Virus record (IMG/VR): IMGVR_UViG_3300028391_000005
Location: 1 to 44,278 of that record
DNA length: 44,278 nucleotides
Direction: 5' to 3' (one strand)
Source of the DNA: a virus
The notes under the pieces are model-generated. The model did not search any database, was not told the DNA's origin, and saw nothing but the letters and a program-made list of their open reading frames with translations. Position numbers and translations under genes: made by a program. The stretch's first letter is position 1, and each line of letters begins with the position of its first letter. Shown here piece after piece: positions 1-44,278 of this stretch.

Positions 1-1
1 T

Positions 2-2080
2 CTTAATAAAACATCAAATAAATTGGGTAAATTTGGTGATGAGATACAAAACACCACTTCTGTACTTGGAGATTTTGGTAGAGGTCTAAGCATGATGACC
101 GGTATGGTGACCAAAGGTTTAGGTATGGTCACAGATACTGCTATGGGATTAGCAACTGAATTCTTAGGCACAAGTGTTAAGATGAGTGACTTTGCATCAC
201 ACTTACCATTAGTAGGTGGTGCACTCAGTAGTATATTAGGAATGGTTGAAGAAAACGTTCAAACATTTAGAAGTCTATCTGAAGTAGGTGCTTCTTTCGG
301 TAACAACATTGTTGAAATGAATTTGGCGGCGGCTGATGCAGGATTAAGCATGGAACAGTTTGCTGAGTTTGTTGGTAGCAACGCACAGAACATGATGCTA
401 TTAGGAGGCACAACAACAGAAGGTGCTAAGGCATTTGGAAGATTAACTAAAAGTTTACCAAGAGAAGAACTTATGGGAATGGGTTTTACTATGGAATCTC
501 TTGCAGAACATACAGCAGGTTACATTGAACTACAAGCAATGCAAGGTAAACTTGCTGGAAGAAGTCAAGCATCATTACGTGCAGGTTCAGAACAATACTT
601 AATGCAGATTGATAGACTTGCTAAAGTAACAGGTAAATCACGTAAAGAAGCAGAAGCATTATTAAAGAAACAAGCCTCAGAAGCAAACGTTATGGTTATG
701 GCAAGTAGATTGTCAGGAGAAGCATTAACTAACTTCCAAGACGGACTTGCATTTGTTGATTCAGAATTACCAGGATTTAGTGGTGCTATTAAAGACTTAG
801 CAGACGGTGTTGCACAAACTCCATTAGCACAAAAACTTGCGGCAACTATACCAGGCTTTGCAGAATTACAGAAACAACTTGGTGATGGTGCTATCAGTCA
901 AGAAGAATACATTAAGCAGATGGCAGGCTTTGGTCCAGAGATGGATGCGTTTATTAAAAGCATGGATCCTGCAATGGTACAATCATTGATGGGTAAAGAA
1001 GGCTTTGAAGGATTAACCAGTGGCTTGGCTGAATACAAAAAGATGTCAGCAAAATACACTGATGCAGATATTGCGGCAATGAAAGCAGAACAACAAGAAA
1101 GAGATAAGACTACTAAAACAACGGCCGCTTTTGAAGTAGCAATGACTGAAATGCGTAACAAGATTAAAACAACTATTCTTGACAGTGGATTGTTTGATAT
1201 GTTCATGGAAGGTATTGGTACATTTACAGAATGGTTTACTTCCACAGGTAAAGATGGCGTGTCAAAATTAGATGGTTTCTTAGACGGAATCCTAAAGTAC
1301 GGTGAAGAGATGGCCAAGTTCTTAAAAGATACCTGGGAAGCGGCAGGAGGCGACTTAGGTAAATTCTTTAGCGAAGTTTGGGATAAAAAATTTAAACCTA
1401 TGATTAAAAAAGGATTTGATAAAGTTGGAGAAATATTTGGTGCTTGGTTTGGTGCTTTCTTTAAAGAACATATTGGAACATTAATTGTTGGTGTACTTGG
1501 CGGACTTGCAGGACTACTACTTACAGGATTTATAACATCATTATTACCAACAATATTTGGAATCATACTTGGTCCAATTATTGCACCATTCCTTGCAATT
1601 GGAGTGGCACTACTTGCTATATTTGGTTGGGAAAAAATTAAAAGTTGGGTACAACCGATTCTTGATGTATTCTCTACAATGTTTGAGTTTATTGGGAAAA
1701 TCTTTACTGGCTTAGTTGATAAACTTAAAAAACTTAATCCGTTTAGTTGGTTTGGTGGAGATGACGAAGAAGACGATCCAAATCAAAAGATCGCCGAGAA
1801 TTTGAAAAAGACAGAAATTGAAGATCCAAAAATCAAAATAGCCAACGCAGGTGTAATGCCAGACTATGAAATGCCAACAGTTACAACACCAGAAATTGAT
1901 ACAACCAAAATTGTTGCCGACTCTGGAGTCACAAAGAAACTCCAAGAGAGCGAAGCCGCGGTAAATACAAATAGCACAGATTTAGCAACTGCTACTTTGG
2001 TAGAGCAAAATAAAATTTTAAAACAGATTCTCCGTGCAACAAACGGGTTACAGGGGAATATGTTGAAAGGAACTGCGTAA
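2..2080 (+). CDS. Large tape-measure-like or membrane-active virion protein, 5' end outside window
   Basis: The reading frame is open from base 2, with no stop before the first possible start (TTG at 23), so the gene almost certainly begins upstream and about 693 codons are seen. The N-terminal part is rich in Gly, Met and Ala helices. The middle is charged and helical (KSRKEAEALLKKQ). Residues about 490-545 form a long hydrophobic stretch (LIVGVLGGLAGLLL, then IFGIILGPIIAPFLAIGVA) that could be two or three membrane helices. The C-terminus is acidic and coiled-coil-like (VEQNKILKQILRATN). Large size, helix content and hydrophobic segments fit tape-measure or DNA-ejection proteins of tailed phages, but I see no family motif that proves it. 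In T4 the gene just before gp20 is the tail tube gene 19, so this neighbour differs from T4. It ends 3 bases before the portal gene, suggesting co-translation. Function is inference. Confidence 0.5.
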   Translation, partial: LNKTSNKLGKFGDEIQNTTSVLGDFGRGLSMMTGMVTKGLGMVTDTAMGLATEFLGTSVKMSDFASHLPLVGGALSSILGMVEENVQTFRSLSEVGASFGNNIVEMNLAAADAGLSMEQFAEFVGSNAQNMMLLGGTTTEGAKAFGRLTKSLPREELMGMGFTMESLAEHTAGYIELQAMQGKLAGRSQASLRAGSEQYLMQIDRLAKVTGKSRKEAEALLKKQASEANVMVMASRLSGEALTNFQDGLAFVDSELPGFSGAIKDLADGVAQTPLAQKLAATIPGFAELQKQLGDGAISQEEYIKQMAGFGPEMDAFIKSMDPAMVQSLMGKEGFEGLTSGLAEYKKMSAKYTDADIAAMKAEQQERDKTTKTTAAFEVAMTEMRNKIKTTILDSGLFDMFMEGIGTFTEWFTSTGKDGVSKLDGFLDGILKYGEEMAKFLKDTWEAAGGDLGKFFSEVWDKKFKPMIKKGFDKVGEIFGAWFGAFFKEHIGTLIVGVLGGLAGLLLTGFITSLLPTIFGIILGPIIAPFLAIGVALLAIFGWEKIKSWVQPILDVFSTMFEFIGKIFTGLVDKLKKLNPFSWFGGDDEEDDPNQKIAENLKKTEIEDPKIKIANAGVMPDYEMPTVTTPEIDTTKIVADSGVTKKLQESEAAVNTNSTDLATATLVEQNKILKQILRATNGLQGNMLKGTA

Positions 2081-2083
2081 CAC

Positions 2084-3847
2084 ATGAGCTGGAAAAGATA
2101 TTTTACAAATGCGCCTGTAGGTAACAACGACGGTGGTAACATGAGCCCGTTCAGTGGACGTGGCGGAAACGAACCGGGTCCGGCAAGATCTAATTATTCT
2201 TCATATCTACCAGACGTATATGTAGGCTCTCCAAATAGAGTAGAGCGTTATGGTCAATACAATACTATGGACAACGACTCAGAAGTAAATGCGGCGTTAG
2301 ACATTTTAGCAGAATTTTGTTCACAACAAAATGCACGTAACAGAACATCATTTAATTTACATTTTAATAAAACAGCAACAAACAGTGAAGTTAACATTTT
2401 AGGACAATACCTAAAGCAATGGTCTAAACTACAAAAGTTTGAAACTAAAATGTTTAAAATTGTGCGTAATACATTTAAGTATGGTGACGCATTTTTTGTA
2501 AGAGATCCTGAAACTAAAAAATGGTTTTACATTGATCCTGCAAAAGTTGTACGTATTATTGTAAACGAATCAGAAGGCAAAAAGCCAGAACAATATATTA
2601 TTAAAGATATTAACTTTAATTTTAGAGATCAAATTATTACTGATCCGCATATTACAAGCGGAAATATTACAGGCGGTGGAACATCGTCAGGTTCACAAGG
2701 TTATCAATCAGGTGGCGCACAAGGTGCAGTTGGTAACACAGGAACATCACAATCAGGTTCAAGATTTAATGTAAACAATAGAGAAGTTGCTATTAATGCA
2801 GAACATGTTGTACATTTAAGTTTAAGTGAAGGATTAGACAACAACTATCCATTTGGTAATAGTTTGTTAGAAAGTATATTTAAAGTATACAAGCAAAAAG
2901 AATTATTAGAAGACGCAATTATTATTTACAGAACGCAAAGAGCACCTGAACGTAGAGTGTTTTACATTGACGTAGGTAATATGCCATCACACCTTGCAAT
3001 GCAATTTGTTGAGCGTGTAAAAACAGAAATACACCAAAGACGTATTCCAAGTGCGACAGGTGGATCAACAAGTGTTATTGATAGTGCATACAATCCATTA
3101 TCAACTAACGAAGATTACTTCTTTCCACAAACAGCAGAAGGTAGAGGATCTAAAGTTGAAACATTACCAGGCGGTACTAACTTAGGTGAGATTGACGATT
3201 TAAAATACTTTACTAATAAACTTATTAGAGGTTTACGTATTCCAAGTAGTTACTTGCCAACAGCGGCACAAGACGATGCACAAACACAAAGCAACGATGG
3301 TAGAGTAGGTACTGCATACATACAAGAACTACGCTTTAACAAGTACTGTGAACGTTTACAAGCACTTGTAACAGAAGAATTTAATCAAGAGTTTAAACGT
3401 TACCTATTAGAAAAAGGTATGAATCTTGATGTTTCAATGTTTGATTTAAAACTTGAACCACCAATGAACTTTGCAAGTTACAGACAATCAGAACTTGACA
3501 ATGTAAGAATTCCAACGTTTACACAAATTATGGCTGTGCCATTTATTAGTAACAGATATGCAATGAAACGTTTCTTAGGATTAAGTGAAGAAGATATGGC
3601 TGAGAATGAACGTTATTGGAAAGAAGAGAATGATGAAAATATTACTCCACCACCAACAGACGCCGCAGGTGAAATGCGTGGCGTAGGTATTAGTGGCGCG
3701 GCAATGGATGCAGACATAGGCGGAGCAGAAGACATTGATCCTAATGCAGAGCCTGATCCAGTTGCAGGAGGAGAAGCGACAGCACCTGACACAACAACAG
3801 GCGGTGGCGCAGGCGGAGCACCTGCTCCTGAAGTACCACCAGCATAA
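2084..3847 (+). CDS. gp20: Portal vertex protein of the head (T4 gp20 family)
   Basis: Twelve copies of this protein form the ring through which DNA enters and leaves the head; it also nucleates prohead assembly and joins the tail. Recognisable T4-type blocks are RTQRAPERRVFYIDVGNMP (residues about 283-301), VERVKTEIHQRR (309-320), ETLPGGTNLGEIDDLKYF (359-376) and RGLRIPSSYLP (382-392). At 587 aa it is longer than T4 gp20 (524 aa). Part of the excess is a Gly/Ser/Gln-rich segment at about 192-226 and a Gly/Pro/Ala-rich acidic tail after about residue 540; both look like disordered insertions. The ATG lies 3 bases after the upstream stop, with AAAGGAA about 12 bases upstream as a weak ribosome site. 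It is followed by the core, protease, scaffold and capsid genes in T4 order. Confidence 0.97.
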   Translation: MSWKRYFTNAPVGNNDGGNMSPFSGRGGNEPGPARSNYSSYLPDVYVGSPNRVERYGQYNTMDNDSEVNAALDILAEFCSQQNARNRTSFNLHFNKTATNSEVNILGQYLKQWSKLQKFETKMFKIVRNTFKYGDAFFVRDPETKKWFYIDPAKVVRIIVNESEGKKPEQYIIKDINFNFRDQIITDPHITSGNITGGGTSSGSQGYQSGGAQGAVGNTGTSQSGSRFNVNNREVAINAEHVVHLSLSEGLDNNYPFGNSLLESIFKVYKQKELLEDAIIIYRTQRAPERRVFYIDVGNMPSHLAMQFVERVKTEIHQRRIPSATGGSTSVIDSAYNPLSTNEDYFFPQTAEGRGSKVETLPGGTNLGEIDDLKYFTNKLIRGLRIPSSYLPTAAQDDAQTQSNDGRVGTAYIQELRFNKYCERLQALVTEEFNQEFKRYLLEKGMNLDVSMFDLKLEPPMNFASYRQSELDNVRIPTFTQIMAVPFISNRYAMKRFLGLSEEDMAENERYWKEENDENITPPPTDAAGEMRGVGISGAAMDADIGGAEDIDPNAEPDPVAGGEATAPDTTTGGGAGGAPAPEVPPA

Positions 3848-3849
3848 GG

Positions 3850-3857
3850 AATAAATA
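3850..3857 (+). promoter_or_regulatory. Late-promoter-like box AATAAATA
   Basis: AATAAATA resembles the T4 late promoter core TATAAATA and lies in the 15-base gap after gp20. Exactly five bases (gttac) separate it from the ATG at 3863, so the predicted start of transcription falls on or next to that ATG. AAGGA just before the box could serve as a distant ribosome site on read-through transcripts. Confidence 0.5.
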
Positions 3858-3862
3858 GTTAC

Positions 3863-4102
3863 ATGATACTAAGAGAATTATTTTATTTTGACAAAGAAAC
3901 ACTTGAACCAACAGAAGACAAGTCATATGATTCTGCTGACGATGAAGGTGTTGTATCAAGAGACGACACAAGAAAAACAAGACTAAGCCTACGTCAAATC
4001 AACAAAGCACGTAGAGCCGGCGAATTTCATAACGAAGAACAACAGAAAGAGTTACATTTTGTAAGACAGATGTACGGATTGGCATCACAACCTGAAGCAT
4101 AG
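3863..4102 (+). CDS. Small head protein at the gp67 position (prohead core candidate)
   Basis: This is a 79-residue, strongly charged protein with no membrane segment or signal peptide. It has an acidic first half (DKETLEPTEDKSYDSADDEG) and a basic, helical second half (RKTRLSLRQINKARRAGEF). T4 carries gene 67, an 80-residue prohead core protein, at this place between portal and protease, so length and synteny suggest an equivalent role in the internal core that is later digested by gp21. I do not recognise a motif that proves homology with T4 gp67. The pattern DDTRKTRLSLRQINKARRAG is one I associate with conserved proteins of marine T4-like phages. The gene has its own late-promoter-like box and its stop codon forms part of the ribosome site of the next gene. 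Confidence 0.6.
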   Translation: MILRELFYFDKETLEPTEDKSYDSADDEGVVSRDDTRKTRLSLRQINKARRAGEFHNEEQQKELHFVRQMYGLASQPEA

Positions 4103-4110
4103 GAGATGAT

Positions 4111-4707
4111 ATGTCAACAGCATTCGTTGTTGGTAACGGCACAAGTCGCAAACCCATAAGTTTAGAAGCATTAAAACAGTACGGTCCTATCTATGCCTGT
4201 AACGCAGTTTATAGAGACTTTAGGCCAGACTATCTTGTAGCAGTAGATGCCAAGATGGTGCTTGAAATTTGCAAAACAGGCTGGCAAAAGCACAACAAAG
4301 TATACACTAATCACAATAAACAGTTAAACGACATACAAGGACTCAACATTTTAAACCCCAGTAAAGGCTGGAGTAGTGGTCCTACAGCATTAGATCTTGC
4401 TTCAGACCACGGACACGATCCTATATATTTGTTAGGATTTGACTTTAAAGGCACTACAGGCACCGGAAAAGGCGATGATAAGGTAAACAACTTATACGCT
4501 GGTACATTTAATTACAAGCGAGAAAACGACCCTGCAACATATTTTGGTAACTGGGAGCGTCAAGTAGGCATAATATGCCAAAGAAATCATAGAAAGAGAT
4601 ATATAAGAGTAGTAGCAGAAGGAGATAAATTCCTACCAGGAAGTCTAAAAAACTTTACAAATTTATCCCATGTAAATATCGAAGAATTTCAGAAAATCTT
4701 CGGTTAA
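4111..4707 (+). CDS. MptE/DUF115- or sialyltransferase-like protein inserted in the head operon
   Basis: The 198-residue protein begins with a Rossmann-like loop VVGNGTSR (residues 6-13), continues with NAVYRDFRPDYLVAVD (31-46), and has the block SSGPTALDLASDHG then IYLLGFDF (88-112). This arrangement is shared by the DUF115/MptE-like fold (motility-associated glycosyltransferases, 6-hydroxymethylpterin diphosphokinase) and by GT42 sialyltransferases such as CstII. All bind a nucleotide-linked donor there. A sugar-transfer role is therefore plausible but the substrate is unknown. It has a good ribosome site (AGGAGA, overlapping the previous stop) and sits between the gp67-position and gp68-type genes, where T4 has no enzyme. 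It might modify the capsid or host glycans, or be a passenger. Fold assignment is moderately sure, activity is not. Confidence 0.55.
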   Translation: MSTAFVVGNGTSRKPISLEALKQYGPIYACNAVYRDFRPDYLVAVDAKMVLEICKTGWQKHNKVYTNHNKQLNDIQGLNILNPSKGWSSGPTALDLASDHGHDPIYLLGFDFKGTTGTGKGDDKVNNLYAGTFNYKRENDPATYFGNWERQVGIICQRNHRKRYIRVVAEGDKFLPGSLKNFTNLSHVNIEEFQKIFG

Positions 4708-4769
4708 TTTCATTAAGGTTTCAAAATCCTGCGTTTTGAGCCTATATTCCACGTATTTTCCCTATTATA

Positions 4770-4777
4770 TGTAAATA
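4770..4777 (+). promoter_or_regulatory. Possible late-promoter-like box TGTAAATA upstream of the core gene
   Basis: The 114-base gap before the gp68-type gene holds TGTAAATA, a two-mismatch relative of TATAAATA. It also holds a weak hairpin (TCAAAA/TTTTGA near 4721-4740) and a TTGACA at 4781-4786. The gene itself has a perfect ribosome site AGGAGG (4809-4814) seven bases before its ATG. A promoter here would serve the core-protease-scaffold-capsid genes, but which element is used cannot be told from sequence. Confidence 0.3.
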
Positions 4778-4821
4778 TTATTGACAGCCTTACCAAACGT
4801 AAACTTATAGGAGGTACTACA

Positions 4822-5793: not shown

Positions 5794-5810
5794 TTGTTAG
5801 GGAATAGTTG

Positions 5811-6428: not shown

Positions 6429-6435
6429 GGAGAAC

Positions 6436-7552: not shown

Positions 7553-8716
7553 ATGTCAGAACTATTAGAAAGTAGATGGCAGGAAACTAAGAGCGCATTA
7601 CTTGAAGGCCTACAAGGCAATAAGAAGTCTGTTATGTCTGCTACGCTTGACAACACCAAGAAATACTTGGCTGAGTCGGCTACAGCAGGAGCAACTTCTG
7701 CCGGTAATGTTGCAACTTTAAATAGAGTTATCCTACCAGTAATAAGAAGGGTCATGCCTACAGTGATCGCTAACGAAATCGTTGGTGTTCAACCTATGAC
7801 AGGACCAGTGGGTCAAATCCACACATTAAGAGTTCGTTACTCAGACACATTAGATGATGTGACTGCAGGCGAAGAGGCTCTATCACCGTTCAAGATTGGC
7901 TTAGGCTATTCAGGTGGTGGATCTACTGATAAGGCATCTGCTACAGCGGCACTTGAAGGTGAAGCAGGTAAGAGATTGTCAATTCAGATCTTAAAACAAA
8001 CAGTTGAAGCGAAAACACGTAAGTTAAGTGCTCGTTGGACTTTTGAATCTGCACAAGATGCACAAGCACAACAGGGTATCGACGTTGAAGCGGAAATTAT
8101 GGCGGCTTTAGCACAAGAAATTACTGCTGAAATCGACCAAGAAGTTCTTGCTTCTTTACGTAACTTGGCTGGCGCGGCTGAATCAGATGTACAGTACGAT
8201 CAAACTGCTGTATCAGGAACTGCTACATTCGTCGGTGACGAACATGCGGCACTTGCTGTAATGATTAACAGAGCGGCTAACAAGATCGCACAGCGTACAA
8301 GACGTGGCGCTGGTAACTTTGCAGTGGTATCACCGCATACGTTAACAGTACTTCAGTCTGCTACAACTTCAGCGTTCGCAAGAACAACTGAAGGAACTTT
8401 TGAAGCACCTACTAACACTAAACTTGTTGGTACATTAAACAGTGCTATGAAAGTATACGTAGACGCTTATGCATCAGACAGTACAGACGTACTTGTTGGA
8501 TACAAAGGAACATCAGAAGCAGATGCGGCGGCATTCTATTGCCCATACATTCCGCTAATGTCTTCAGGCGTTGTGTTGGATCCAGGTTCATTCGAACCAG
8601 TAGTAAGTTTCATGACAAGATATGGTTATGTAGAGTTAAACAACACTGCATCATCTCTTGGTAATGCGGCTGACTACTTGGCACGTGTATCTGTAACAGG
8701 TGTAACATTCAGTTAA
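7553..8716 (+). CDS. gp23: Major capsid protein (T4 gp23 family)
   Basis: This forms the hexamers of the icosahedral head shell. N-terminal blocks include LNRVILPVIRRVMPTVIANE and GVQPMTGPVGQIHTLRVRY. The C-terminal blocks DVLVGYKG, AAFYCPYIPLMSSGVVLDPG and FMTRYGYVELN match the diagnostic gp23 signature. At 387 residues it is clearly shorter than T4 gp23 (521 aa), probably lacking part of the insertion domain. A likely gp21 cleavage site is Leu39-Ala40-Glu41 before Ser42 (consensus I/L-x-E), which would give a mature protein of about 346 residues; this is inference. The ribosome site AAGGAGA is good. The gene is followed by a strong rho-independent terminator, consistent with the end of a highly expressed operon. 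Confidence 0.97.
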   Translation: MSELLESRWQETKSALLEGLQGNKKSVMSATLDNTKKYLAESATAGATSAGNVATLNRVILPVIRRVMPTVIANEIVGVQPMTGPVGQIHTLRVRYSDTLDDVTAGEEALSPFKIGLGYSGGGSTDKASATAALEGEAGKRLSIQILKQTVEAKTRKLSARWTFESAQDAQAQQGIDVEAEIMAALAQEITAEIDQEVLASLRNLAGAAESDVQYDQTAVSGTATFVGDEHAALAVMINRAANKIAQRTRRGAGNFAVVSPHTLTVLQSATTSAFARTTEGTFEAPTNTKLVGTLNSAMKVYVDAYASDSTDVLVGYKGTSEADAAAFYCPYIPLMSSGVVLDPGSFEPVVSFMTRYGYVELNNTASSLGNAADYLARVSVTGVTFS

Positions 8717-8844: not shown

Positions 8845-9070
8845 ACTTTAACACAAACTAAGAGAGTTATAAGCTCTTAGCACTTGTGGCAGAATAACGC
8901 TTCGGCAGGGGCGTAATGCACACTAAAGTCTTTTAAGCGGCCAAGTGGCTCGGTTTAGATGGAGGTGGTTGGAAGTAGGTATCATATCTAAACCTTGCAA
9001 AATTCAGATGTGATCTGCTTATCGAAAGTTGGAGGTGAGTTCACAGCAAGGCCTCCCGAGTAGTGTTATA
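8845..9070 (+). ncRNA. Highly structured intergenic region, candidate non-coding RNA of unknown type
   Basis: This is the only long gene-free stretch (the gap from the capsid stop to the next start is 379 bases). It has no start codon with a ribosome site. Visible helices are: CTAAGAG 8858-8864 with CTCTTAG 8874-8880; TGTG 8885-8888 with CACA 8919-8922 enclosing a GC-TTCG-GC hairpin; GGCC with GGCT around loop AAGT (8939-8950); a perfect 9-bp stem GGTTTAGAT 8952-8960 with ATCTAAACC 8986-8994; CAGAT 9005-9009 with ATCTG 9013-9017; CCTTGC 8993-8998 with GCAAGG 9046-9051 (shares two bases with the previous stem, so they may alternate); and GGAGG 9031-9035 with CCTCC 9052-9056. Base composition is visibly higher in G+C than flanking DNA, as for stable RNAs. 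It is not a tRNA: no T-loop and no acceptor pairing. A GGAAGTAGGT string recalls the glutamine riboswitch core, but the rest of that motif is missing. Confidence 0.55.
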
Positions 9071-15018: not shown

Positions 15019-18000
15019 GTGGCAGTTGGTCGTATATCTGGTCCGCTTTTAAAGGCAAATTTGCTTCGTCAAGGAGTGGATTTAGCGTTTGAAACAGACC
15101 TACTTTATTTAGATGTTAATAATAGCCGTATTGGAATTAAGACATCAACGCCTACAGCCGAGCTCGATATAAACGGTTCAGCAAGAATACAATCATTAGA
15201 TATTTTAGACACTACATTACCGATTGGTAACATAACAATCAACGGTGGTACTAATACTATCTCTACTACAGCAAGTCAGTTCAATATTGCAACACCAAAC
15301 AGCGTAATTTACCAAGATAGATTACAAATTGATGATATTGAAATAGACGGTAGTGTAATTCGCACATTAGGAACTAACCAAAACTTAGAATTTCGTCCTA
15401 ACGGGACAGGTACTATTAACTTTGTAGGTAATACAAACGTTACTGGTAACTTACATGCAACTGGTAACATCAGTGCAGACGGTGATATTACTATTGGTGA
15501 TGACGATACAGATAGTATTACAATAAATGCAGACATTGCCAGTAACCTAATACCAGATGCAACAAACATATACACCATTGGTGACGCAACTAAAAAGTGG
15601 AATCATGGTTACTTTGATGATGTAACAGCAACAACAGTTGTTGCAAACAGTATTACATTATCAGACTTGGACTTAACAGCAACTCCAGGCAACATTTATT
15701 ATGTTGCTAAGAATGGTAATGATACAAATGCTGGTAATCATCCACAAGCACCATACACAACTATTACAAAAGCATTAACTTCTGCAAGTGCAGGAGACAC
15801 TATTCACATTTACCCAGGTGATTATGAAGAAGTATTTCCTTTAACAGTACCAGCGGGTGTTGCAATCTTAGGTGAAGGTATTAGATCAGTAAACATTACA
15901 CCTACAGCAGGAACAAACAACAATGATTGTTTTGTATTGCAAGGTGAAACAAGTGTTATGAACTTGTCAATCAAAGATTTTTACTACGATAGCATTAATG
16001 ACAATGGATATGCTTTTAGATTTGCAAGTAACTTTAATGTTACTTCAAGATCACCTTATGTTAAAAACGTAACTGTAATAACAAAAGGTAGTGTAACAAG
16101 TGCAAGTGATCCAAGAGGCTTTGATCAAGGAGATGCAGGACGTGGTGCATACTTAGATGGCTCTGTAGCAGTAACAGGATCAAAAGAAGCAAGTATGTTA
16201 TTCCATGCAGTAACATTTATTGTTCCTGGAGCAGTTGGATTATACGCAACCAATGGTGCAAGAATTGAATGGCTAAACTCTTTTGTATATTTTGCCGACA
16301 AAGCGATACAAGGTGTTAATGGTACTACAGGATTAAAAGGTACAGGACGTACTAAAGTTAAATTAAGCGGACTTGTTGGAACACCAACAGCGTCTGAAGT
16401 GTTTCAATACACACAAGCAGGCGGAACTGTAATTAGTGCAACAGTAAATGAAGTAGATGGAAACTACATTTACTTGAACGGTAACGCGGCAGGACTTGAA
16501 ACCAAATTTGAACGTGGTGGAAAGACAGTAGTTGTTTCAGGACAAGCACAAGTAGATACAACAATTAAAAAATTCGGCACTGGTAGTTTACAACTTGACG
16601 GCACCGGCGACTATATCAGCATTGCAAATGATCCAGACTTTGGTTTAGGAACAGCAAACTTTACTATTGAAGGTTGGTTCTACGGAAACAACGTAACAGG
16701 TACACAGTCATTAGTTGATATGAGAGCCGGTACAGCAACTGACACAGGCTTATACATATATCACGTAGGTGGTACAGTAAAAGTTTATTACAATGGTGCA
16801 GAGATATTATCCGGCGGAACGTTATCAGCAACAACATGGACACATATTGCAGTATCACGTTCAAGTAATACAATTAATTTATATGTTAACGGTGCAAGAG
16901 TTGATAGTGATAATGCATTTAGTAGCACACTTGGAACAAGTAAGCCGTTTATTATTGGTGCAGTGTATGATGCTTCAAATGCTTTCAACGGTTATGTAGA
17001 TGATTTTAGAATTTCAGACAATGCAAGATACACAGCAGGTTCATACACACCACCATTGAACGAAGTTTCAAATGATAACAACACAAAATTATTATTAAGA
17101 TTTAACGGTACAGATACTTCAACAACACTTACTGACGAAACTATTTTAGATCAGACAATCGGCTTTGGTGGCGGTGCTTATGCAACTGGAATGGAACTGG
17201 TTGACTTCTCAGACTTTGGTTGTGAGATTAGATCAATTGGTAGTGCATGTGTTTATGGTAACTATGGAATATACGGCGACGGTAACGGCGTTGTTATGTA
17301 CCTTATTTCTCAGAACCTTGCATACATTGGTAACGGTAAAGCAGTTGATAATGATTCAACAACAGTTGTACAAAGTCAAGAAGTTACAAAATTAAATGAC
17401 GCAAACATTTACTTTAGTTCAGTTGACCATAAAGGTGACTTTAGAGTTGGTGATGTATTCCATGTTGATCAAGCATCTGGCACTGTTACATTTACTAACG
17501 CAAACTTTAACGTTGATACTTTACAAAGTGTTAGATTTAGCACTGGCACAAGTACAACTATTATTGACGGCGACAAGATTCAAACAGGTAACACAAGATT
17601 AAGTGGCAACACTGTAGAAAGTTTAAGTGGAAACTTGAACATTGACAGTGCTGACGGTATTATTAACTTTGCAGACAATGTAAACATCACAGGAAACTTA
17701 GATGTAACAGGAGATGTTACAATAGGTGGTAACATTACCATTGGTGATGAAGCAAGTGATAGCATACAAATTGTTGCAGGTATTGCAAGTAACCTTGTAC
17801 CAAGCCAAGACGGAACATTTGACTTAGGTATTTCAACACATGAATGGAAAAAAGTTTACACAGGTGAGGCACAGATTGATGATATTAACATTAATACTAA
17901 TGTTATTCAAACAACTAACACAAACCAAGACTTAGAATTACGTGCAAGTGGAACAGGAAGTATTGTTGTTGATGATTTAAGTTTCAAAGCAAACATTATT

Positions 18001-27694: not shown

Positions 27695-30600
27695 ATGGCA
27701 GAGTTTAAATTAGGTAGAATTAGGTTTATTTGGAAGGGATCATGGGTCTCAGCCAAAGAATACTTTAAAGACGATGTAGTCCGCTACGGTGGTCGTACAT
27801 ATATTGTTAATACTGGCCACACAAGTTCTAACTTCGACACAGACATCTCTAACTTTGACAAGATGGCAGATGGTACTGAGTGGAAAGGTAACTGGGCATT
27901 ATCAACAGTTTACAAACCTAATGACATTGTTAAGTACGGCGGGTACTTATATGTTGCAAACACAGGTCACACTTCTGCAACAACTACATCAGATGGCTTA
28001 GAATTAGATCAATCTAAATGGGATTTATTCTGTGAAGGATTTGACTGGTTAGGTGATTGGGGTGTTTCAACAAGATATAAAGTTAATGACATTGTCCGTT
28101 ATGGTGGCGTTATGTACTTGTGTACAGAAGCACACACATCTGGCGCATCAGTAGGTGACGGATTAGAATTAGATCAAAGTAAATGGGATTTATTTGCAAA
28201 CGGTTTAACTTGGTTAAACGCTTGGATTGCAACAACAAGATATAAGAAAGGTGACGTTGTACGTTACGGTGGACAAGTTTATGTTTGTAACACTGGACAT
28301 ACAGCAGGCGCTGACAACACAGCAGGACTTGAAGAAGATCAAGCCAAGTGGGATTACTTACACAAAGGTATTGAATACTTAGGTGACTGGACTACAGGAA
28401 CAAGATACAAAAACAATGATGTTGTTAAGTATGGTTCAGACTTATGGATTTGTGGAACGTTCCACACAGCAGGTGCAACACTTGCGGCTGATGAAGCAAA
28501 ATGGTCTATCTTTATTCCAGGATTAGAATTTGAAGACAGTTGGCAGAACAATGTAAACTTCCAACCAGGTGACGTTGTTACTTATGGTGGTTACACTTAC
28601 GTTTCAAAAACAAACAACTTTAATATTATTCCATACAACAACGCAAGTGATTGGGATTTATTTACAACAGGATTTTCTTTCAAGGGTGATTACAATAACG
28701 CAACGGCTTATAAGATCGGCGATGTAGTTAGACTTGGAGGTTGGACATTTATTGCACTTGCAGATGGTACAGGTAACAGACCACCAGACAACGTATACTG
28801 GGATAAACTTAATGAAGGTTTATACTGGAAAGGTGCTTGGACAAACGCAGTTTACTATGACAAGGGTGATGTTGTTAGAGGTATTAACGATGTTAACTCA
28901 TATGTTTGTGTTGCTCCACACACTTCAGAGCAAGTTGGTGCAGGACAAAATAGACCAGACCAAGACACAGCAGGTAACTACTGGAATTTATTAAACGGTG
29001 GTGCTGAAGCAGGTAACTTAACTACACGTGGTGACCTTGTTTACTACGGTGGATCAGGTCCAACAAGATTACCAGTTGGTCAACCAGGACAAGTATTAAA
29101 AGTTAACGAATCAGGAACAGATCCAGAATGGTCATTCTTTGGTCAACTTGATGCAGTTTATTATACTGCACTTGATGGAGTTGATAAAGATGTTCCAGCG
29201 GCAGGTGTTACACTTGACAAACCTTTTAGAACTGTACAATTTGGTTTACAGCAAATTGAAAAAGGTGCAAGAAAACCTAACGCAACACAGTTAATGAAAA
29301 TTAACAAAGCATTCATTCAAGACGAAGTGTTAAGTTGGGTTGATACACAGATTGTTGGATCAATTGCTCCTTTCACAGGTTCATTTACATACACTGCGGC
29401 TAACTGGCGTAGAGACATAGGTACATTTGTTGATGCACTTATTTGGGATTTATCACATGGTGGTAATAAGAAAACAAGATTAGAAACACTTGCATATTTT
29501 GACAGTGCGGCAGATCAATACTATGTAAGTAATGATGGCATCACTGCTGAATTTGCGGCGACACTTACATTCGTTACAACGTTACTTGATGATGTAATTA
29601 CACAAGATGCACCATCAAGCGATTACCAAGCATTAAGAAGTGTTGCTACTCCAACTTTACGTGTAACAGATTCTACAAGAGTTGAAGAACCTGAAGCACA
29701 AGGCATCTTAAACGCTCTTAGAGCTATTGCTACAGCGGCTTTGACCGCAGGTAACACAACTGGTGTCCCAGCACAATTAATTGCAAACGACACGCTTTTC
29801 CTTAAGACAGGACAATTTAACGAAGTACTTCCAATGGTTGTACCAGAAGGTTGTGCTGTGGTTGGTGACGAACTACGTTCAACTAAAGTTTCACCAGCAG
29901 GACAGTTAACAAATTCAGGCGATAGTGTTTATTCATTAGCAGGACTTACACACTTGGCAAGTATTGTAGATGATGTTATTACAAACTCAGCAGTAACAAG
30001 TACTCAAACCAGTTTTGTTGTACTTTCATCGAATGCATCAGCAACTACTTTAGATATAATGACAGGTGCAAACAGTTACGCTCACACTTATACAAGTGGA
30101 GGTACAGTTACATTTAGCGGAACTACTGTAAACGTTACAGCGGCCGCTTACGATAATGTTACAGGTATAGTTTCAATAACAACAGATGCGGCACATGGTG
30201 CAGTAGCAACTAACGTTGTACAGGTTGCTAACATTACTTGGACTTGTTCATTAGGTACTAAAGTATATCCAGCAGTTAAAGCACAAGACACAGCGGCACC
30301 GGCAGGTTCAGGTGCGGCAGGAACAGCGGCGGCGGCAGTTGCTACAGCAATTAAAAATAAAATTGACTTTGTATTAAATGCAAACGGTTCAGATGTTGCT
30401 TTTGCAGGTGTTAACGATCCTGTTAAGACAGCAGGTTACACTGACGCAGTTATTAGACTTGAAGCAAATAAAGAATTCTTAGTTGAAGAAGTAGTTAGTA
30501 AGATTGCAATTGATTATCCTGCTTACTCTTTTACAACTGCACTTAAAAATTCTTGTAAACGTGATGTTAGACGTTACATTGAAGCAATACAACATGACAT

Positions 30601-35195: not shown

Positions 35196-35936
35196 ATGTC
35201 AAGTTTAAGAACCTTATTACAATACGGAACATCTTCAGGGGCATCTGCTCCTTTAACTTCATTAAGAGTATACGCGACAAACGTTACCGATCAAAACAAC
35301 GGTGGTAAATGTTGCCAGTGGACAGTACCAACAGGTGCTGAATGGGCGGCTTTTGAAGTTTGGGGTGGCGGTGGTCCAGGTGCTGGAGTGTGCTGTTGCC
35401 AACAAGGTTGGTCAGGTGGATCAGGTTCTTATGGTAGACGAATTATAACAGTATCAGCGGGAGAAACATTTACAATTTGTGCAGGTGGTAGTACATGCTG
35501 TCACTCAAGATGTTACAGTTGTAGAGGATTCCCAAGTTACGTATGTGGACCGAGTGCATTTTGTATGTGTTCATCAGGTGGATCAGAAGCGGCTTCCAAA
35601 TGTTTTTGGAGTCAAAACTGTTCATACAGTGGATGTCAAATGTTTAACTGCGGTTGTGTTAACGGTGCTACATTGGCAATGTGTGGTACAACAGGTGGCG
35701 GACATGGCTCAGCTCACTGTGCATCAGACATGCACCAGTTTATGCCAAGTGCACCATTTACAGGAGTTACAAGAATGTCACGTTCAGGTTGTTACAAAAC
35801 AGATGGACAAGGACAAGGAGACCACGGAGTATTCCCAGGAGGGGGTGGTGCTTCTGGAGTAACACACAACGAAACATGTTATTGCGGAGCGAAAGGAATG
35901 GGCGGATTAGTAACAGTTTACTACACTGCAACATAA
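35196..35936 (+). CDS. Cysteine- and glycine-rich adhesin-like protein B
   Basis: 246 residues with 23 cysteines by my count. Same plan as protein A: NNGGKCCQWTVPTGAEWAAF (about 34-53), VWGGGGPGAGVCCC, GSYGRRIITVSAGETFTICA, then STCCHSRCYSCRGFPSYVCG and a C-terminal VFPGGGGASGVTHNETCYCG with a last strand GLVTVYYTAT. The middle (residues about 100-200) differs from A and C in length and order of cysteine blocks, as expected if it holds the variable receptor-binding loops. It starts one base after the upstream chaperone-like gene, so translation is probably coupled. Receptor binding is inference from architecture and location. Confidence 0.75.
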   Translation: MSSLRTLLQYGTSSGASAPLTSLRVYATNVTDQNNGGKCCQWTVPTGAEWAAFEVWGGGGPGAGVCCCQQGWSGGSGSYGRRIITVSAGETFTICAGGSTCCHSRCYSCRGFPSYVCGPSAFCMCSSGGSEAASKCFWSQNCSYSGCQMFNCGCVNGATLAMCGTTGGGHGSAHCASDMHQFMPSAPFTGVTRMSRSGCYKTDGQGQGDHGVFPGGGGASGVTHNETCYCGAKGMGGLVTVYYTAT

Positions 35937-37678: not shown

Positions 37679-37686
37679 CTTAAATA
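37679..37686 (+). promoter_or_regulatory. Late-promoter-like box CTTAAATA, five bases from ATG
   Basis: CTTAAATA is followed by ATTGT and ATG at 37692, the same five-base spacing as at 3850, 9083 and 11097. The 33 bases upstream contain no ribosome site or hairpin. It marks the start of the enzyme cassette. Confidence 0.5.
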
Positions 37687-37691
37687 ATTGT

Positions 37692-38525
37692 ATGAGTAAT
37701 ACAGTTAGATTTGCGGGTGCTCAAATACCTGTAACACAGAATCTTGAAAAGAATGAAGCAAGTATCATTAAGGCAATTGACTGGGCCGCAGAAAATAACT
37801 GCGACTGGTTACTAACACCTGAAGGTTCACTATCAGGTTATTTTCCAAACTTTGATTTAGTATTAGAAAATGGTATGCCTGATTTAGCCAAATCTGCATA
37901 CAGAGTAATTACACATGCAAACTCAAAAGGAATGGGTATTGCACTTGGTACATTATGGGTTGATGTTGAGCATAGAGGAAGTATTAGAAAAAATCAAATT
38001 AGATATTACGATAAACAAGGCGAATTACTTGGAGCAACTAACAAACAATATATCGTTGGTGGGGAAGATAGTCCACATCATAGTTGGGATCAAGTATTAG
38101 CAGATCCACCAGGAACAACTAAAACACATTATCTTGACGGTGTGAGAACATGCGGAATGATATGTAATGATTTTTGGGGTAATGGATTTAGATTTAACGC
38201 ACCAAGTCTACCATTAATGGCAAGTATACATCAAGTAGAAGTTATATTACATGCTACAAATGGAGATAGAGGAAACAGTCAAGACAGTTTATGGATGGAA
38301 TGGCATGACGTACACCTACGTATGATGAGTTCACAATATGGTATTCCTATTATTACTGTCGATAGTTGCTGTGATAAGTTTGGTGAAAGAGAAGACTTAC
38401 CAACAAGTAGTCCGAGCGGAGTATTAGTTGATGGCAAGTGGGTAGTACAAGTACCACGCACAGGACAACAACACTTCTTTTGGGACTATGTCACGAATGA
38501 CGAAACAAAACCAACTACACAATAA
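37692..38525 (+). CDS. Carbon-nitrogen hydrolase (nitrilase superfamily)
   Basis: 277 residues with the full nitrilase catalytic triad in correct order and spacing: Glu44 in LLTPEGSLSGY, Lys118 in LGATNKQYIVGG and Cys158 in RTCGMICNDFWG. These enzymes split nitriles or amides, or transfer amine or acyl groups, in the cytoplasm. I cannot name the substrate. The length is normal for the family. The ATG follows a late-promoter-like box by five bases and has no ribosome site, so it may be read from a leaderless message. Next to it are a glycosyltransferase-like gene, an SGNH hydrolase and a carbamoyltransferase. Together this suggests an amide or sugar modification pathway, for example of virion or host-surface glycans. 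It is unusual in the structural region of a T4-like phage. Confidence 0.85.
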   Translation: MSNTVRFAGAQIPVTQNLEKNEASIIKAIDWAAENNCDWLLTPEGSLSGYFPNFDLVLENGMPDLAKSAYRVITHANSKGMGIALGTLWVDVEHRGSIRKNQIRYYDKQGELLGATNKQYIVGGEDSPHHSWDQVLADPPGTTKTHYLDGVRTCGMICNDFWGNGFRFNAPSLPLMASIHQVEVILHATNGDRGNSQDSLWMEWHDVHLRMMSSQYGIPIITVDSCCDKFGEREDLPTSSPSGVLVDGKWVVQVPRTGQQHFFWDYVTNDETKPTTQ

Positions 38526-38555
38526 GTAATTGCATAAAAGGAACTATAAAATATA

Positions 38556-39539: not shown

Positions 39540-40425
39540 ACTATTTGTATTTGGTTGTAGTTTTACCATGTATGCGTGGCCAACGTATGCTGATTTCTTA
39601 GGTTATGAATTCGATCATTATGAGAACTGGGGCTTTCCTGGTTTAGGCAATCGTGCTATTGCAGAACGTGTTGCAGAATGCCACGTAAAAAACAATCTTA
39701 CAAAAGACGATACAGTAATTGTACAATGGAGTACACATACACGTAACGACTGGCATACTTTTAGAACTGTAGAGTTTAAAGGTAAGCGAGGCGATGCAAT
39801 TAGAAACACTGACGAAATAGGTTGGAAAACTAAAGGCAGTATTTTTAATTACATGAATAGAGAAGTTTGCTATAATGACGACTGGATTAATACATTCTGG
39901 GACGAACATAGTTATTATATGCACGGACAAAATGCAATAATACTTACACAAGGATTATTAGAAAGCACAGGTTGTACATGGCGTATGACAAGTATTGGAC
40001 ATATGAATAAGTTAGGTACAGACATGCCAAACATAAATGACTTTGGAGAAACACCAACTGATACTGTTGATGTATATAAAGAAAGACCTGAATTAAAAGT
40101 TTACGAAAACATAGACAAAACAAATTGGTTAGAACCTTTAGGTTTGTTTGCTTGGAAACGTAAAGAAAAACATTATGATTTTTACGACCCAAATACAAAT
40201 GAAGATTGGATGGAACCACACCCAAGTCATTGGCAACATTATGATTACTTGAACGAAGTAGTTCGTCCAAGTTTGGGCCTTAAAAGCAAAAATAACGATA
40301 AACAACATAGTACAGTTGAACTATTAGATAAACTAAAAGATGAAAATCGCGACCTTTTAAGTTTCGAAGAAGCAATTTTAAAAGAGGTAGTTGATTATAA
40401 TCACATAGGATACGTAGGATTTTAA
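39493..40425 (+). CDS. SGNH/GDSL-like hydrolase or acyltransferase
   Basis: 310 residues from ATG 39493. Block I is FVFGCSFTMYAWPTYADFLG with Ser23 as nucleophile (GCSFT replaces GDS). A Gly-Asn block (GFPGLGNRAIAERV, Asn53) follows, then a QWSTHTRNDW strand, and a C-terminal EPHPSHWQHYDYL with His243 and Asp238 as likely acid-base pair. These mark the SGNH superfamily, which removes or transfers acyl groups, often on sugars. The first 47 bases overlap the upstream gene; no other start codon lies close to the conserved strand except TTG at 39505, so the overlap is probably real. The next gene begins one base after its stop. Substrate unknown; deacylation or acylation of the glycans handled by its neighbours is inference. 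Confidence 0.75.
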   Translation: MEQELKSQKHQNKKNRLFVFGCSFTMYAWPTYADFLGYEFDHYENWGFPGLGNRAIAERVAECHVKNNLTKDDTVIVQWSTHTRNDWHTFRTVEFKGKRGDAIRNTDEIGWKTKGSIFNYMNREVCYNDDWINTFWDEHSYYMHGQNAIILTQGLLESTGCTWRMTSIGHMNKLGTDMPNINDFGETPTDTVDVYKERPELKVYENIDKTNWLEPLGLFAWKRKEKHYDFYDPNTNEDWMEPHPSHWQHYDYLNEVVRPSLGLKSKNNDKQHSTVELLDKLKDENRDLLSFEEAILKEVVDYNHIGYVGF

Positions 40426-40426
40426 T

Positions 40427-42241
40427 ATGAAGAAACCAACATTGTGGATAGCAGGAATAGCCAGAGGACATAACGGAGGAGTATGTTTACTTCAAGACGG
40501 AGAAGTAGTATTTTCTATTGAAGAAGAACGTTTAAGTAGACACAAGTATGACGGAGGTCCGTATGCATCTATGATGAAAATACTTGATTATACTGACAAG
40601 TTAGATTATATTTGTATTGCACATACACAAAGTTTAGAAGCAACAGCAGGTCAAGTTGACTTTACAGGAGACGATGTTTATACAGGTATTGCACGTAAGT
40701 TAGGACTTATTGATAGAGATCCTAAGTTACTTCCTAAACACCCACAAGTAATTGACCTAAGTTATTTTCATCACAAACTACATGCTGGATTAAGTTTTTA
40801 TAATTCAGGATTTGATACTGCAACAGCAGTTATCGTAGATGGTGCTGGAACTTTCTTTACTGCAAACATGGGCGGTGATCCTAACAATCCAACTACACTT
40901 TGGGAAACAGAAAGCATTTACACTTGTGAATATCCTGCAACTATTAAAACAGTGTACAAACATTTAGGTACTTATGGTCCACTTGTTGGTGCTGAATATC
41001 CAAAGTTTAACGCAGACTTTTTCGGTGAAGGTGACGGAACTATACCTGAAATTGTTATTAGTGAAACAGCAGGTATTGTAAAAACATATGAAGCAGTAAC
41101 TGAATACTGTGGCTTTAGTTTTATTGAAGCAGGTAAAACTATGGGACTATTTCCATATGGTAAAGAAAACAATAATATTCCTAAATTGTTTACAGAAGAT
41201 TTAACAAATCCGTTATCAAATAGAAATGTAATTATTCCAACATACCCTAATGGTGCTTATGTTAATAAAAACTTTATTGAAGAAACAAGAGACCGTCAAG
41301 GTCAAGAAGAAGATGTTACAAAATTAGATAACAGAAGAGACATGGCGTATGCTGTGCAAACACAAACGCAAAAACAAGTTGCTGACTTAATTAGAAAAGC
41401 AGTTAAGATGACTGGTAATAAGAATATTGTTCTTAGTGGTGGTTATGGATTAAACTGTGTTGCAAATTATTGGTACTTAGAAGAACTAAAAGACGAAGGC
41501 ATTAATTTATATGTTGAGCCTGTTAGTAATGACGCTGGTACGGCAATGGGTGCGGCAATGATTCAGCATAGACTTATTACAAACGACAGCAGTAGACACG
41601 AAGCAGTTGATACATTATACAACGGACCACATTATCATTATACTGACGAAGAAATTAGCATTATAGCAGAGAAGCATGAAGCAGAAGTATTTGATACTTC
41701 AGATGGATATATTGTTGATTTAATCTCTGATAAGAATATTGTTGCTGTATTCCAAGGTCAAAGTGAGAACGGTCCACGTGCTTTAGGTAATAGAAGTTTC
41801 TTATATGATCCAACAGATCCAGATGGTAAGGATCATGTAAACAAAGTAAAACGCAGAGAATATTTCAGACCATTTGCTGGAACTATTCTTGAAGAAGATG
41901 TACATGAATGGTTTGACTTACGCGGTATGAAAAGTTCACCTACAATGATGTATGCTGTAAACTGTCAACCAGGCATTGAACAAAAGATTCCTGCTATTAT
42001 ACACGTAGACGGAACTTGTCGTATACAAACGGTGAACGAAAAGCAGAACAAAAACTACTACAATTTAATTAAAGCATTTAAAGAAAAAACAGGTGTTCCT
42101 ATGGTGTTTAACACAAGTTTTAATTTAGGTGGTGAACCTTTAGTTGAAACATTGGATGATGCTGTACGTACACTTGCTAAATCCGACGTAGAATACCTAT
42201 ATTTGCCCGAATATTCTAAACTTATTACAGTCAAAAATTAA
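40427..42241 (+). CDS. O-carbamoyltransferase (NodU/TobZ/CmcH family)
   Basis: The enzyme makes carbamoyl-adenylate from carbamoyl phosphate and ATP, then moves the carbamoyl group to a sugar or similar hydroxyl. The 604 residues have the two expected domains. The N-terminal Kae1-like domain has GIARGHNGGVCLLQDGEVV (10-28), metal ligands His115 and His119 (YFHHKLHAG) and Asp138 (VIVDGAG), and NIVLSGGYGLNCVAN (333-347). The C-terminal YrdC-like domain has FQGQSENGPRALGNRSFL (442-459), KRREYFRPFAG, HVDGTCRIQTV and VFNTSFNLGGEPLV (560-573). Length and all main motifs are normal, so it should be active. It is the last gene of the cassette. Carbamoyltransferases are known in some T4-like marine phages; the target is unknown here. 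Confidence 0.93.
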   Translation: MKKPTLWIAGIARGHNGGVCLLQDGEVVFSIEEERLSRHKYDGGPYASMMKILDYTDKLDYICIAHTQSLEATAGQVDFTGDDVYTGIARKLGLIDRDPKLLPKHPQVIDLSYFHHKLHAGLSFYNSGFDTATAVIVDGAGTFFTANMGGDPNNPTTLWETESIYTCEYPATIKTVYKHLGTYGPLVGAEYPKFNADFFGEGDGTIPEIVISETAGIVKTYEAVTEYCGFSFIEAGKTMGLFPYGKENNNIPKLFTEDLTNPLSNRNVIIPTYPNGAYVNKNFIEETRDRQGQEEDVTKLDNRRDMAYAVQTQTQKQVADLIRKAVKMTGNKNIVLSGGYGLNCVANYWYLEELKDEGINLYVEPVSNDAGTAMGAAMIQHRLITNDSSRHEAVDTLYNGPHYHYTDEEISIIAEKHEAEVFDTSDGYIVDLISDKNIVAVFQGQSENGPRALGNRSFLYDPTDPDGKDHVNKVKRREYFRPFAGTILEEDVHEWFDLRGMKSSPTMMYAVNCQPGIEQKIPAIIHVDGTCRIQTVNEKQNKNYYNLIKAFKEKTGVPMVFNTSFNLGGEPLVETLDDAVRTLAKSDVEYLYLPEYSKLITVKN

Positions 42242-42253
42242 ATCTTCTTAAGC

Positions 42254-42261
42254 GATAAATA
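42254..42261 (+). promoter_or_regulatory. Late-promoter-like box GATAAATA
   Basis: GATAAATA lies 12 bases after the carbamoyltransferase stop and is followed by a clear ribosome site (AAAGAGGA) before ATG 42279. It restarts structural gene expression after the enzyme cassette. Confidence 0.65.
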
Positions 42262-42278
42262 TACTAAAGAGGACTATT

Positions 42279-42698
42279 ATGTTTGATATTGGTAAATTTT
42301 TCGGTAAAGGCTTAAAGAACACAGTACTAATGAAAAACGGTACTAATTTAAGTTATCACGGACCATGGAAGAAAATCACAGAAGATACACTGCTTGACAG
42401 ATGGCTTGTAGGTGATTTTTGTGCGGCAGAATACACTATTGTTGCTGATCTAAGCACATTTCAAAAAGAGATTGTTAAGTGTTTAGTAGTTGCTGGTCCA
42501 AGCACAGCAGAATTAGTTGTATATGGACGTAGCAACTTAGGAAATCAAATTCTTGATGTAACTGCTACAGTTAATGACAGTTACGTAAACATTATTGTTA
42601 ATGCAAAACCATTAGATGATTCAGCACCAGGACGTGGTGCAAAATGTGTATTCAGTGCAAACTATTATCAAACACAAAACGTATTGGTACCTGCATAA
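42279..42698 (+). CDS. Conserved structural protein of marine T4-like phages
   Basis: 139 residues with a charged amphipathic start (MFDIGKFFGKGLKNTVLMKN) and the pattern YHGPWKKITEDTLLDRWLVG (about 26-45), then IVKCLVVAGPSTAELVVYGR, SNLGNQILDVTATVNDSYVN, ending SANYYQTQNVLVPA. I recall this HGPW...DTLLDRWLV family from T4-like marine phages as a virion protein of unknown role. It appears mainly beta after the N-terminal helix. No catalytic residues are evident. It has its own late-promoter-like box and a good ribosome site, and ends 15 bases before the next fibre gene. Confidence 0.75.
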   Translation: MFDIGKFFGKGLKNTVLMKNGTNLSYHGPWKKITEDTLLDRWLVGDFCAAEYTIVADLSTFQKEIVKCLVVAGPSTAELVVYGRSNLGNQILDVTATVNDSYVNIIVNAKPLDDSAPGRGAKCVFSANYYQTQNVLVPA

Positions 42699-42713
42699 TG
42701 AGGAGAATATAGT

Positions 42714-43748
42714 ATGGCTGTAAACTACATACCGTTAGAAGCAGAACACGGATTTAAGAGTCCTGGATTTAGTGTTGATGCTGAAGGTAACGTTACACTT
42801 AAAAGTCTAACATATTCTGTTGTAGAAGAAGAAATTGTTGAAAATAGATTCTACATGAGACAGTCAGGTGAAGGTAATTCATCTGCATTTATTGAGAATA
42901 CAACATACAACACAGGTACACAAATTCCAGCGGAAAACCCTTCATTTAGTTTAGTAAGAGGTACAACGTATTCATTTGATTTAGCAAACTTTCCTTTCTT
43001 AACTTTTAATATTTTTTATGTTGATCCAACTGCACAATCAGCAACATTAATTAATCTTGTTCCTGTTATATTTTATAGCGATGGTTTAAGTTATGTAGAT
43101 CCAAACACCAATGAAACACTAACAGAATTACAAGCACAAGGTAAATCCAATGGGGTTGTAACATTTAAGGTTCCAGCACTTGCACCAGAGACATTATATT
43201 ACGCTACTGGTGACGGTACTATTTACGGAACTATAACTACATCAGATCCAACCATTACAGGTGTGGGTGCATTTAGTAGTTTAAATGTTATCGGTGATGT
43301 TACATTTACAGGTCAAGATGCAGAAATTCAGATTGCTCCACAAGGTGCATATGGTAGTGTAATAATTAACCCTGTAGGACAGGGTACAATGAGCAATATG
43401 TATGTAAATGCATTGACGTTGACTGCTACAGATACAGTAACATTAAGTCCAGTTGATGATAATGTTACAATTACACCAAGCGGAACAGGAGTATTAACAT
43501 TAGATACAGGTGGTATAGGATCAATAAATAACATGTCGATAGGACAAACTACTGCAAGAGATGGTTCGTTCTTAGCGTTGAATGCCTCAAATGGGTTAAA
43601 TAGTACTGTAATAGGAAATGTAACTCCTGCGGACGCAACGTTCACAAAAGCAATAGGACAACAAAGACCGGTGACTGAAAAAGAATTGACAAACAAAGCA
43701 TACGTAGATAGTACAGCAACAGCGTTGGCTATTGCATTAGGAGTTTAA
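42714..43748 (+). CDS. Tail fibre protein with degenerate cupredoxin-like domain
   Basis: 344 residues. After an N-terminal docking part (MAVNYIPLEAEHGFKSPGFS), residues about 60-170 form a beta domain with the cupredoxin frame (FSLVRGTTYSFDLANFPFLT ... VTFKVPALAPETLYYATGDG) in which the Cys-x2-His-x2-Met ligands are absent. The rest is a repeated fibre shaft: 'G.G.fssLnv.GdvtFtG', 'IGQTTARDGSFLALNAS', 'VIGNVTPADATFTKAIGQ'. The C-terminus ends with a 'KeLtNKaYVDStatalAialG' helix, a common fibre trimer end. The ribosome site is GAGGAGAA. The domain order differs from the 19547 fibre, where an intact cupredoxin-like domain is at the C-terminus. Confidence 0.8.
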   Translation: MAVNYIPLEAEHGFKSPGFSVDAEGNVTLKSLTYSVVEEEIVENRFYMRQSGEGNSSAFIENTTYNTGTQIPAENPSFSLVRGTTYSFDLANFPFLTFNIFYVDPTAQSATLINLVPVIFYSDGLSYVDPNTNETLTELQAQGKSNGVVTFKVPALAPETLYYATGDGTIYGTITTSDPTITGVGAFSSLNVIGDVTFTGQDAEIQIAPQGAYGSVIINPVGQGTMSNMYVNALTLTATDTVTLSPVDDNVTITPSGTGVLTLDTGGIGSINNMSIGQTTARDGSFLALNASNGLNSTVIGNVTPADATFTKAIGQQRPVTEKELTNKAYVDSTATALAIALGV

Positions 43749-43753
43749 CGTAA

Positions 43754-44278
43754 ATGGCAAAGACTAAAATTAATGATTATATTTTCCATACAGGAATTCC
43801 TATTAGTGGAAACTATCACCCGAATGCTTACTACCTAATCCAACAAAACGTTGAGTTTCTAAAAGACGAAACTCGTGCTTGGATTAACGATGCAATTACA
43901 AGACAAGTAACAGCAGGTGTTCATACACCAACAAGTGCAACTTACGAACCTACAACAGGTGTAATGACACTTACTATTACAGGTCACCCTTATCAAGTAG
44001 GTGACTATATTAAGTTTGAAGCAGGTGCAATTACTTTTGATCAACAAGCAATTCCTCATTCAACTACTCCTGATATCATTAAAGTTGATGCTGTTCCAGA
44101 TGCAAACACAATTACAATTAACGCAGGTACAAGTACAAATCAATTAGCACACGCATTCCAAAGTGCATCAGCAGATGGTACAAAGAGTGTGATGTATGGT
44201 TACACAAATGACAGTGATGACAAGTGTGAAAGAGATATGGGTTACAACCTTATTGGTGGTGACACTTATAATCCTGTA
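43754..44278 (+). CDS. Fibre-type structural protein, 3' end outside window
   Basis: An open frame of 175 codons runs from the ATG at 43754 to the last base with no stop, so the gene continues beyond the window. The start (MAKTKINDYIFHTGIPISGN, then YHPNAYYLIQQNVEFLKDET) is helical, followed by beta segments (YEPTTGVMTLTITGHPYQVG) that resemble the insert at 22600-22760 in the giant fibre. Near the edge is the pattern CERDMGYNLIGGD, which resembles the 'RRDIGTFVDALIWDL' and 'KRDVRRYIEAIQHDI' inserts of the 27695 fibre. It is therefore likely another large fibre of the same families. It begins 5 bases after the previous stop, and a ribosome site is not obvious. Confidence 0.8.
   Translation, partial: MAKTKINDYIFHTGIPISGNYHPNAYYLIQQNVEFLKDETRAWINDAITRQVTAGVHTPTSATYEPTTGVMTLTITGHPYQVGDYIKFEAGAITFDQQAIPHSTTPDIIKVDAVPDANTITINAGTSTNQLAHAFQSASADGTKSVMYGYTNDSDDKCERDMGYNLIGGDTYNPV

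Follow-up and report, generated by a model that had tools for sequence, protein, structure and literature searches.

How a phage genome can come to lack a short word altogether, and what removed it, is the question raised by a 44,278-base stretch of viral DNA (IMG/VR record IMGVR_UViG_3300028391_000005, positions 1–44278, a metagenomic fragment; hereafter the window). The original prediction held that GCWGC, i.e., GCAGC and GCTGC, is missing from the window and that codon choice bends around it, and attributed this to lasting selection by a host restriction system or to a related mutational or methylation effect. The absence is confirmed by count (GCAGC 0 and GCTGC 0 in 44,278 bases), and two further words prove to have been lost with it. 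The best explanation of these losses, with a probability of roughly 0.88, is that GCWGC, AGCT, and CTAG were eliminated because orthodox Type II restriction enzymes of the host recognise them.

Missing palindromes in a jumbo-phage fragment

Judging by its gene content, the window is part of the genome of a RaK2/121Q/GAP32-like jumbo phage, within the T4 superfamily. It carries a T4-type head module with a closely related major capsid and portal. The major capsid protein (MCP; T4 gp23-like; 7553–8716, plus strand) is 66–71% identical to those of CBB, GAP32, 121Q, PA5oct, XaC1, and their relatives. The portal protein (T4 gp20-like; 2084–3847, plus strand), assigned by position and gene order, since it precedes the capsid gene just as in CBB, GAP32, and 121Q, is 74% identical to its counterpart in G002, the closest long relative. 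The order of portal, protease, scaffold, and capsid is also shared with the RaK2/121Q/GAP32/CBB-like phages (Asteriusvirus, Mimasvirus, and related groups), and tail and baseplate proteins account for much of the remaining window. Fragments of relatives extend to 210 kb and isolates measure 287–469 kb, while the record of the window holds only 44 kb. Strand asymmetry is strong, with every ORF used lying on the plus strand and A at 35% versus T at 27%. A Nol-like carbamoyltransferase (phrog_1601, Carbam_trans_N/C) is encoded at 40427–42241, near a carbon-nitrogen hydrolase-like ORF at 37692–38525. A tRNA search of the window found none, and PADLOC and Pfam scans of its proteins found no defence gene.

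Direct counts on both strands over positions 1–44278 gave no GCWGC, no CTAG, and five AGCT, and these were compared with Markov and codon-shuffle nulls. For GCWGC, a maximal-order Markov model expects 57.9 occurrences. The codon-preserving shuffle, in which synonymous codons are permuted within each of 33 ORFs so that the proteins and per-gene codon usage are retained, expects 66.2 ± 3.7, with a minimum of 57 in 300 shuffles. GCSGC, whose joint depletion would have spoken against a specific loss, is instead present 84 times in the window; 81 of these lie in coding sequence, where 20.5 are expected. The remaining one-mismatch neighbours of GCAGC occur at 0.64–1.18 of expectation, which makes the boundary of the lost word a sharp one. 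By the shuffle and by these neighbours, the loss is independent of both protein sequence and codon usage.

CTAG and AGCT, missed by the original prediction, were wiped out just as strongly. CTAG is absent where 72.9 (codon shuffle) or 83.5 (Markov) would be expected, and the five AGCT stand against 97.3 expected by the Markov model (4 in coding sequence versus 122.8 by codon shuffle). All three words thus show an observed/expected ratio below 0.1 with more than 15 sites expected: 0 of 58–66 for GCWGC, 0 of 73–84 for CTAG, and 5 of 97–123 for AGCT. GATC, GTAC, CCWGG, and GGWCC are normal in the window, the first two being at or above the codon-shuffle expectation. The residual AGCT lie at 2087–2090 (GAGCTG), 8872–8875 (AAGCTC, outside the ORFs used), 15161–15164 (GAGCTC), 29722–29725 (GAGCTA), and 35711–35714 (CAGCTC). 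All five are flanked by a preceding G or a following C and the contexts without such flanks are empty, a pattern hinting at an enzyme with a flank preference.

The window is a metagenomic fragment, and an assembly artefact, or chance in a short sequence, might be suspected on that ground. The likelihood of either is close to nil. None of the 300 shuffles fell below 57 sites, and no assembly process deletes a five-base word from coding sequence while leaving the reading frames intact. In addition, a separate contig (L001) that is 99.9% identical to the window over 6.9 kb shows the same site loss, as do independent relatives.

Codon choice and the replacement spectrum

The bending of codon choice around GCWGC is stronger than first described. 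Before a codon starting with GC (n = 74), alanine is written as GCG 63 times and as GCC 11 times, and never as GCA or GCT. Elsewhere (n = 1,027), GCA and GCT account for 945 alanine codons, and GCG and GCC for only 82, or 8% (Fisher p = 1.6e-71 for the contrast). Cys-Cys pairs, as had been claimed, are never written TGC-TGC; there are 9 TGT-TGT, 5 TGT-TGC, and 6 TGC-TGT. The alanine runs offered as examples are real, but their coordinates had been placed 2–8 bases off, the true starts being 326, 8525, and 30326. The first encodes Ala-Ala-Ala as GCG GCG GCT (326–334, plus strand) in frame with the ORF at 23–2080, the second is GCG GCG GCA (8525–8533, plus strand) inside the major capsid gene, and the third, by direct reading, is GCG GCG GCG GCA (30326–30337, plus strand); in each, the codons chosen avoid GCWGC.

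Alignment with the nearest relatives of normal GCWGC content indicates how the sites were replaced. Only 1 of 325 aligned GCWGC sites is retained in the site-free phages, while retention is 19% for the other 5-mers that contain four G/C and 25% for all other 5-mers. Among 194 single-base replacements, 132 changed the central W to G or C (A>G 65, T>G 42, A>C 16, and T>C 9), and just 21 were C>T or G>A at the word's own C or G. This spectrum, dominated by the central position and poor in C>T, argues for selection acting through synonymous escape and not for the decay of methylated cytosines.

It also bears directly on the mutational alternative, under which the host would methylate the C of GCWGC and deamination would then erase the word with no selection involved. 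The needed activity exists in environmental bacteria: work on lake bacteria has described a GCWGC methyltransferase from Chloroflexi, M.AbaBS3I, as well as methylation at AGCT (PMC6329791). However, the words that deamination would produce show no clear excess (GTAGC at 0.70 and GCAAC at 1.15 of expectation). Furthermore, CTAG and AGCT were lost as well, and in the relatives AGCT was lost via changes at all four positions. The substitution pattern leads us to reject this half of the original prediction, and a purely mutational origin is extremely unlikely.

Under restriction by the host, a genome entering with an unmethylated site would risk being cut at each infection, and site-free synonymous variants would be favoured until no site remained. 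Ala-Ala pairs would come to be written GCG-GCN or GCC-GCN, CAG and CTG codons lying between G and C would be replaced, and xGC-WGC pairs would be broken.

Site loss and turnover across the family

The comparison set consists of 166 distinct contigs (the window and 165 others), obtained by capsid searches among viral contigs, in phage isolates, and in genome assemblies after loci that overlapped had been combined. These are mostly fragments, and the word counts for the isolates cover 33–41 kb near the capsid gene. GCWGC is absent or nearly absent in 17 contigs under a strict rule (at least 9 expected, ratio below 0.1, and p < 1e-4) and in 19 under a looser rule. A dozen contigs are intermediate, and the ratio exceeds 0.6 in about 130 others of similar G+C. 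The most extensive case, G011, has 0 of 92 expected GCWGC and 0 of 227 expected AGCT over 97,865 bases. G002, with an MCP 88% identical to that of the window, has 141 GCWGC for 163 expected, 283 AGCT for 332, and 453 CTAG for 358. These normal counts indicate that the loss in the window is not a clade-wide trait of composition.

A general trait of composition or codon usage could take the form of palindrome avoidance, of DNA structure, or of a mismatch-repair bias like the one acting on CTAG. It has some footing in that many enterobacterial genomes contain little CTAG and in that the Markov model puts CATG mildly below expectation in many members of the family. Against it, CTAG extinction is found in no other distinct relative of the set, the approximately 130 relatives of similar G+C keep GCWGC above 0.6 of expectation, and the palindromes GATC and GTAC are undiminished in the window. 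Such a trait is highly unlikely to account for the losses.

Other words have been lost elsewhere in the family. CATG is missing from nine contigs (L201, L202, L035, L153, L164, L161, L156, L050, and L206; e.g., 0 of 56 expected), GCGC from six, and GTAC from three; CCWGG and GGWCC are both lost in fENko-Kae01, and GATATC in CBB and GAP32. Some relatives lost just AGCT, CATG, GTAC, or GCGC. Across the 166 contigs, palindromes were tested 7,117 times and gave 60 strong losses, whereas non-palindromes, tested 74,831 times, gave 2, so that the bias toward palindromes holds despite tenfold more tests of the other class. The words most commonly lost in the family, GCWGC, AGCT, CATG, and GCGC, are recognition sites of known Type II enzymes. 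Of the 12 contigs free of AGCT, eight are without GCWGC too (Fisher p = 2.4e-6); a link between the two losses independent of descent was considered and found unsupported, there being too few phylogenetically independent pairs.

GCWGC loss arose repeatedly among close relatives. The family tree was built from a single gene, that of the MCP (162 capsid proteins), and many of its forks are weak. On it, the GCWGC state changes at least nine times, with at least five changes forced by strongly supported branches, and AGCT and CATG need at least 10 and at least seven changes; these changes are losses or regains, the direction not being distinguished by the tree. The contrast is visible between near neighbours. 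L133 has 0 of 26 expected GCWGC and L172 has 30 for 28 expected, although their MCPs are 94% identical, and L184 (0 of 11 expected) lies near L181 (30 of 30). In a clade with capsids 94–96% identical, AGCT is kept in L020, L018, and L140, and there is none in L029 and L031. None of the 43 aligned AGCT sites of L020 is retained in L029 or L031, compared with about 40% retention for other 4-mers.

Such a pattern would follow if related phages meet hosts with different enzymes and so lose different sites, and the partly depleted relatives may be in mid-transition. A bolder and quite tentative proposal, which we consider rather less probable than not, is that site loss turns over fast enough to record recent hosts. 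Phages would purge a site genome-wide, over hundreds of kilobases, on entering hosts that share one enzyme, and would regain it by drift after leaving. GCWGC, with its at least five state changes, might then be the mark of a single restriction system widespread among the hosts of the family.

Enzymes, modification, and hosts

GCWGC is the site of TseI and ApeKI, AGCT that of AluI, and CTAG that of BfaI and MaeI. The specificities of these known enzymes equal the three words lost from the window. The part of the original prediction that invoked selection by host restriction gains support from the specificity of the losses, the bias toward palindromes, the repeated origin, and the replacement spectrum. 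Hosts of this phage would presumably carry enzymes that read the lost words, and the absence of sites would protect the DNA during infection. A weakness of this explanation is that it calls for three separate enzymes in the case of a single phage. As GCAGC and its reverse complement together make up GCWGC, an enzyme with GCWGC as its palindromic site and a non-palindromic Type IIS enzyme that reads GCAGC are inseparable by counts.

A site-specific nuclease of the phage itself, degrading host DNA at GCWGC (and at AGCT and CTAG) and leaving its own genome site-free for self-protection, would produce an equally complete absence, and nuclease genes are common in these phages. In a search for genes restricted to site-free phages among the ORFs of G011, G008, and L133, all incomplete genomes, only two neighbouring G011 ORFs were shared solely with site-free contigs, and neither is in the window. 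The many different palindromes lost, and the differences between near neighbours, would also require fast exchange of nucleases. We regard this explanation as improbable.

A phage-encoded methyltransferase was also considered, but the GCWGC-free contigs searched gave no PF00145, PF01555, or PF02086 match; these contigs are fragments, and such a gene may lie elsewhere in the genome. PF00145 matches occur in CBB, GAP32, and 121Q, all with normal GCWGC. For fEgEco12, a phage compared in its description with Asteriusvirus, the genus of 121Q, every enzyme tested gave exactly the predicted digestion (PMC13070987), as with unmodified DNA; DNA in this group can thus be open to restriction. By contrast, XaC1 and XbC2, from the same wider family, show in vitro resistance to some enzymes and carry methyltransferase genes (PMC11273794), so not every member of the family is unmodified.

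The capsid search of genome assemblies recovered relatives in mixed MAG bins (Neomarinimicrobiota, Rickettsiales, Gammaproteobacteria, and others), and these bins were judged unreliable evidence of hosts. Two binned jumbo-phage contigs lack GCWGC, L133 in a Gammaproteobacteria MAG (MED685) and L132 in a Rickettsiales MAG (MED657); the binning may or may not reflect the host.

Site elimination by non-temperate dsDNA phages in response to orthodox Type II systems is already established (Rusinov et al. 2018, PMC6286503). That study, which included GCWGC among the sites examined, likewise found observed/expected ratios below 0.1 for palindromic orthodox Type II sites. Its set comprised phages with known hosts. 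The window differs in that one phage lost three unrelated sites together, and in that near neighbours still bearing the sites allow the loss to be resolved inside a single jumbo-phage family. Open-access papers yielded no earlier report of GCWGC loss in RaK2/121Q/GAP32-like phages. What is unusual here is the three-site extinction, which is exceptionally complete, together with the resolved turnover within a single family.

As a natural example of codon choice that was probably driven by restriction, the window is exceptionally clean. With near neighbours that differ site by site, the rate, order, and cost of site loss should be measurable within one family, and the set of missing sites is a testable prediction of the host's enzymes. 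The findings also suggest that some large T4-like phages rely on the erasure of sites, word by word, even though they could protect their DNA by other means.

Unlike the window, the eight isolates checked among the RaK2/121Q/GAP32/CBB-like phages have normal GCWGC, AGCT, and CTAG. Five of the eight (CBB, GAP32, 121Q, XaC1, and fENko-Kae01) have no GCGC in the regions examined, and fENko-Kae01 lacks CCWGG and GGWCC as well. In the five (L083, L084, L086, L087, and L088 in the set), GCGC stands at 0 of 15–22 expected, and their hosts are enterobacterial and Xanthomonas.
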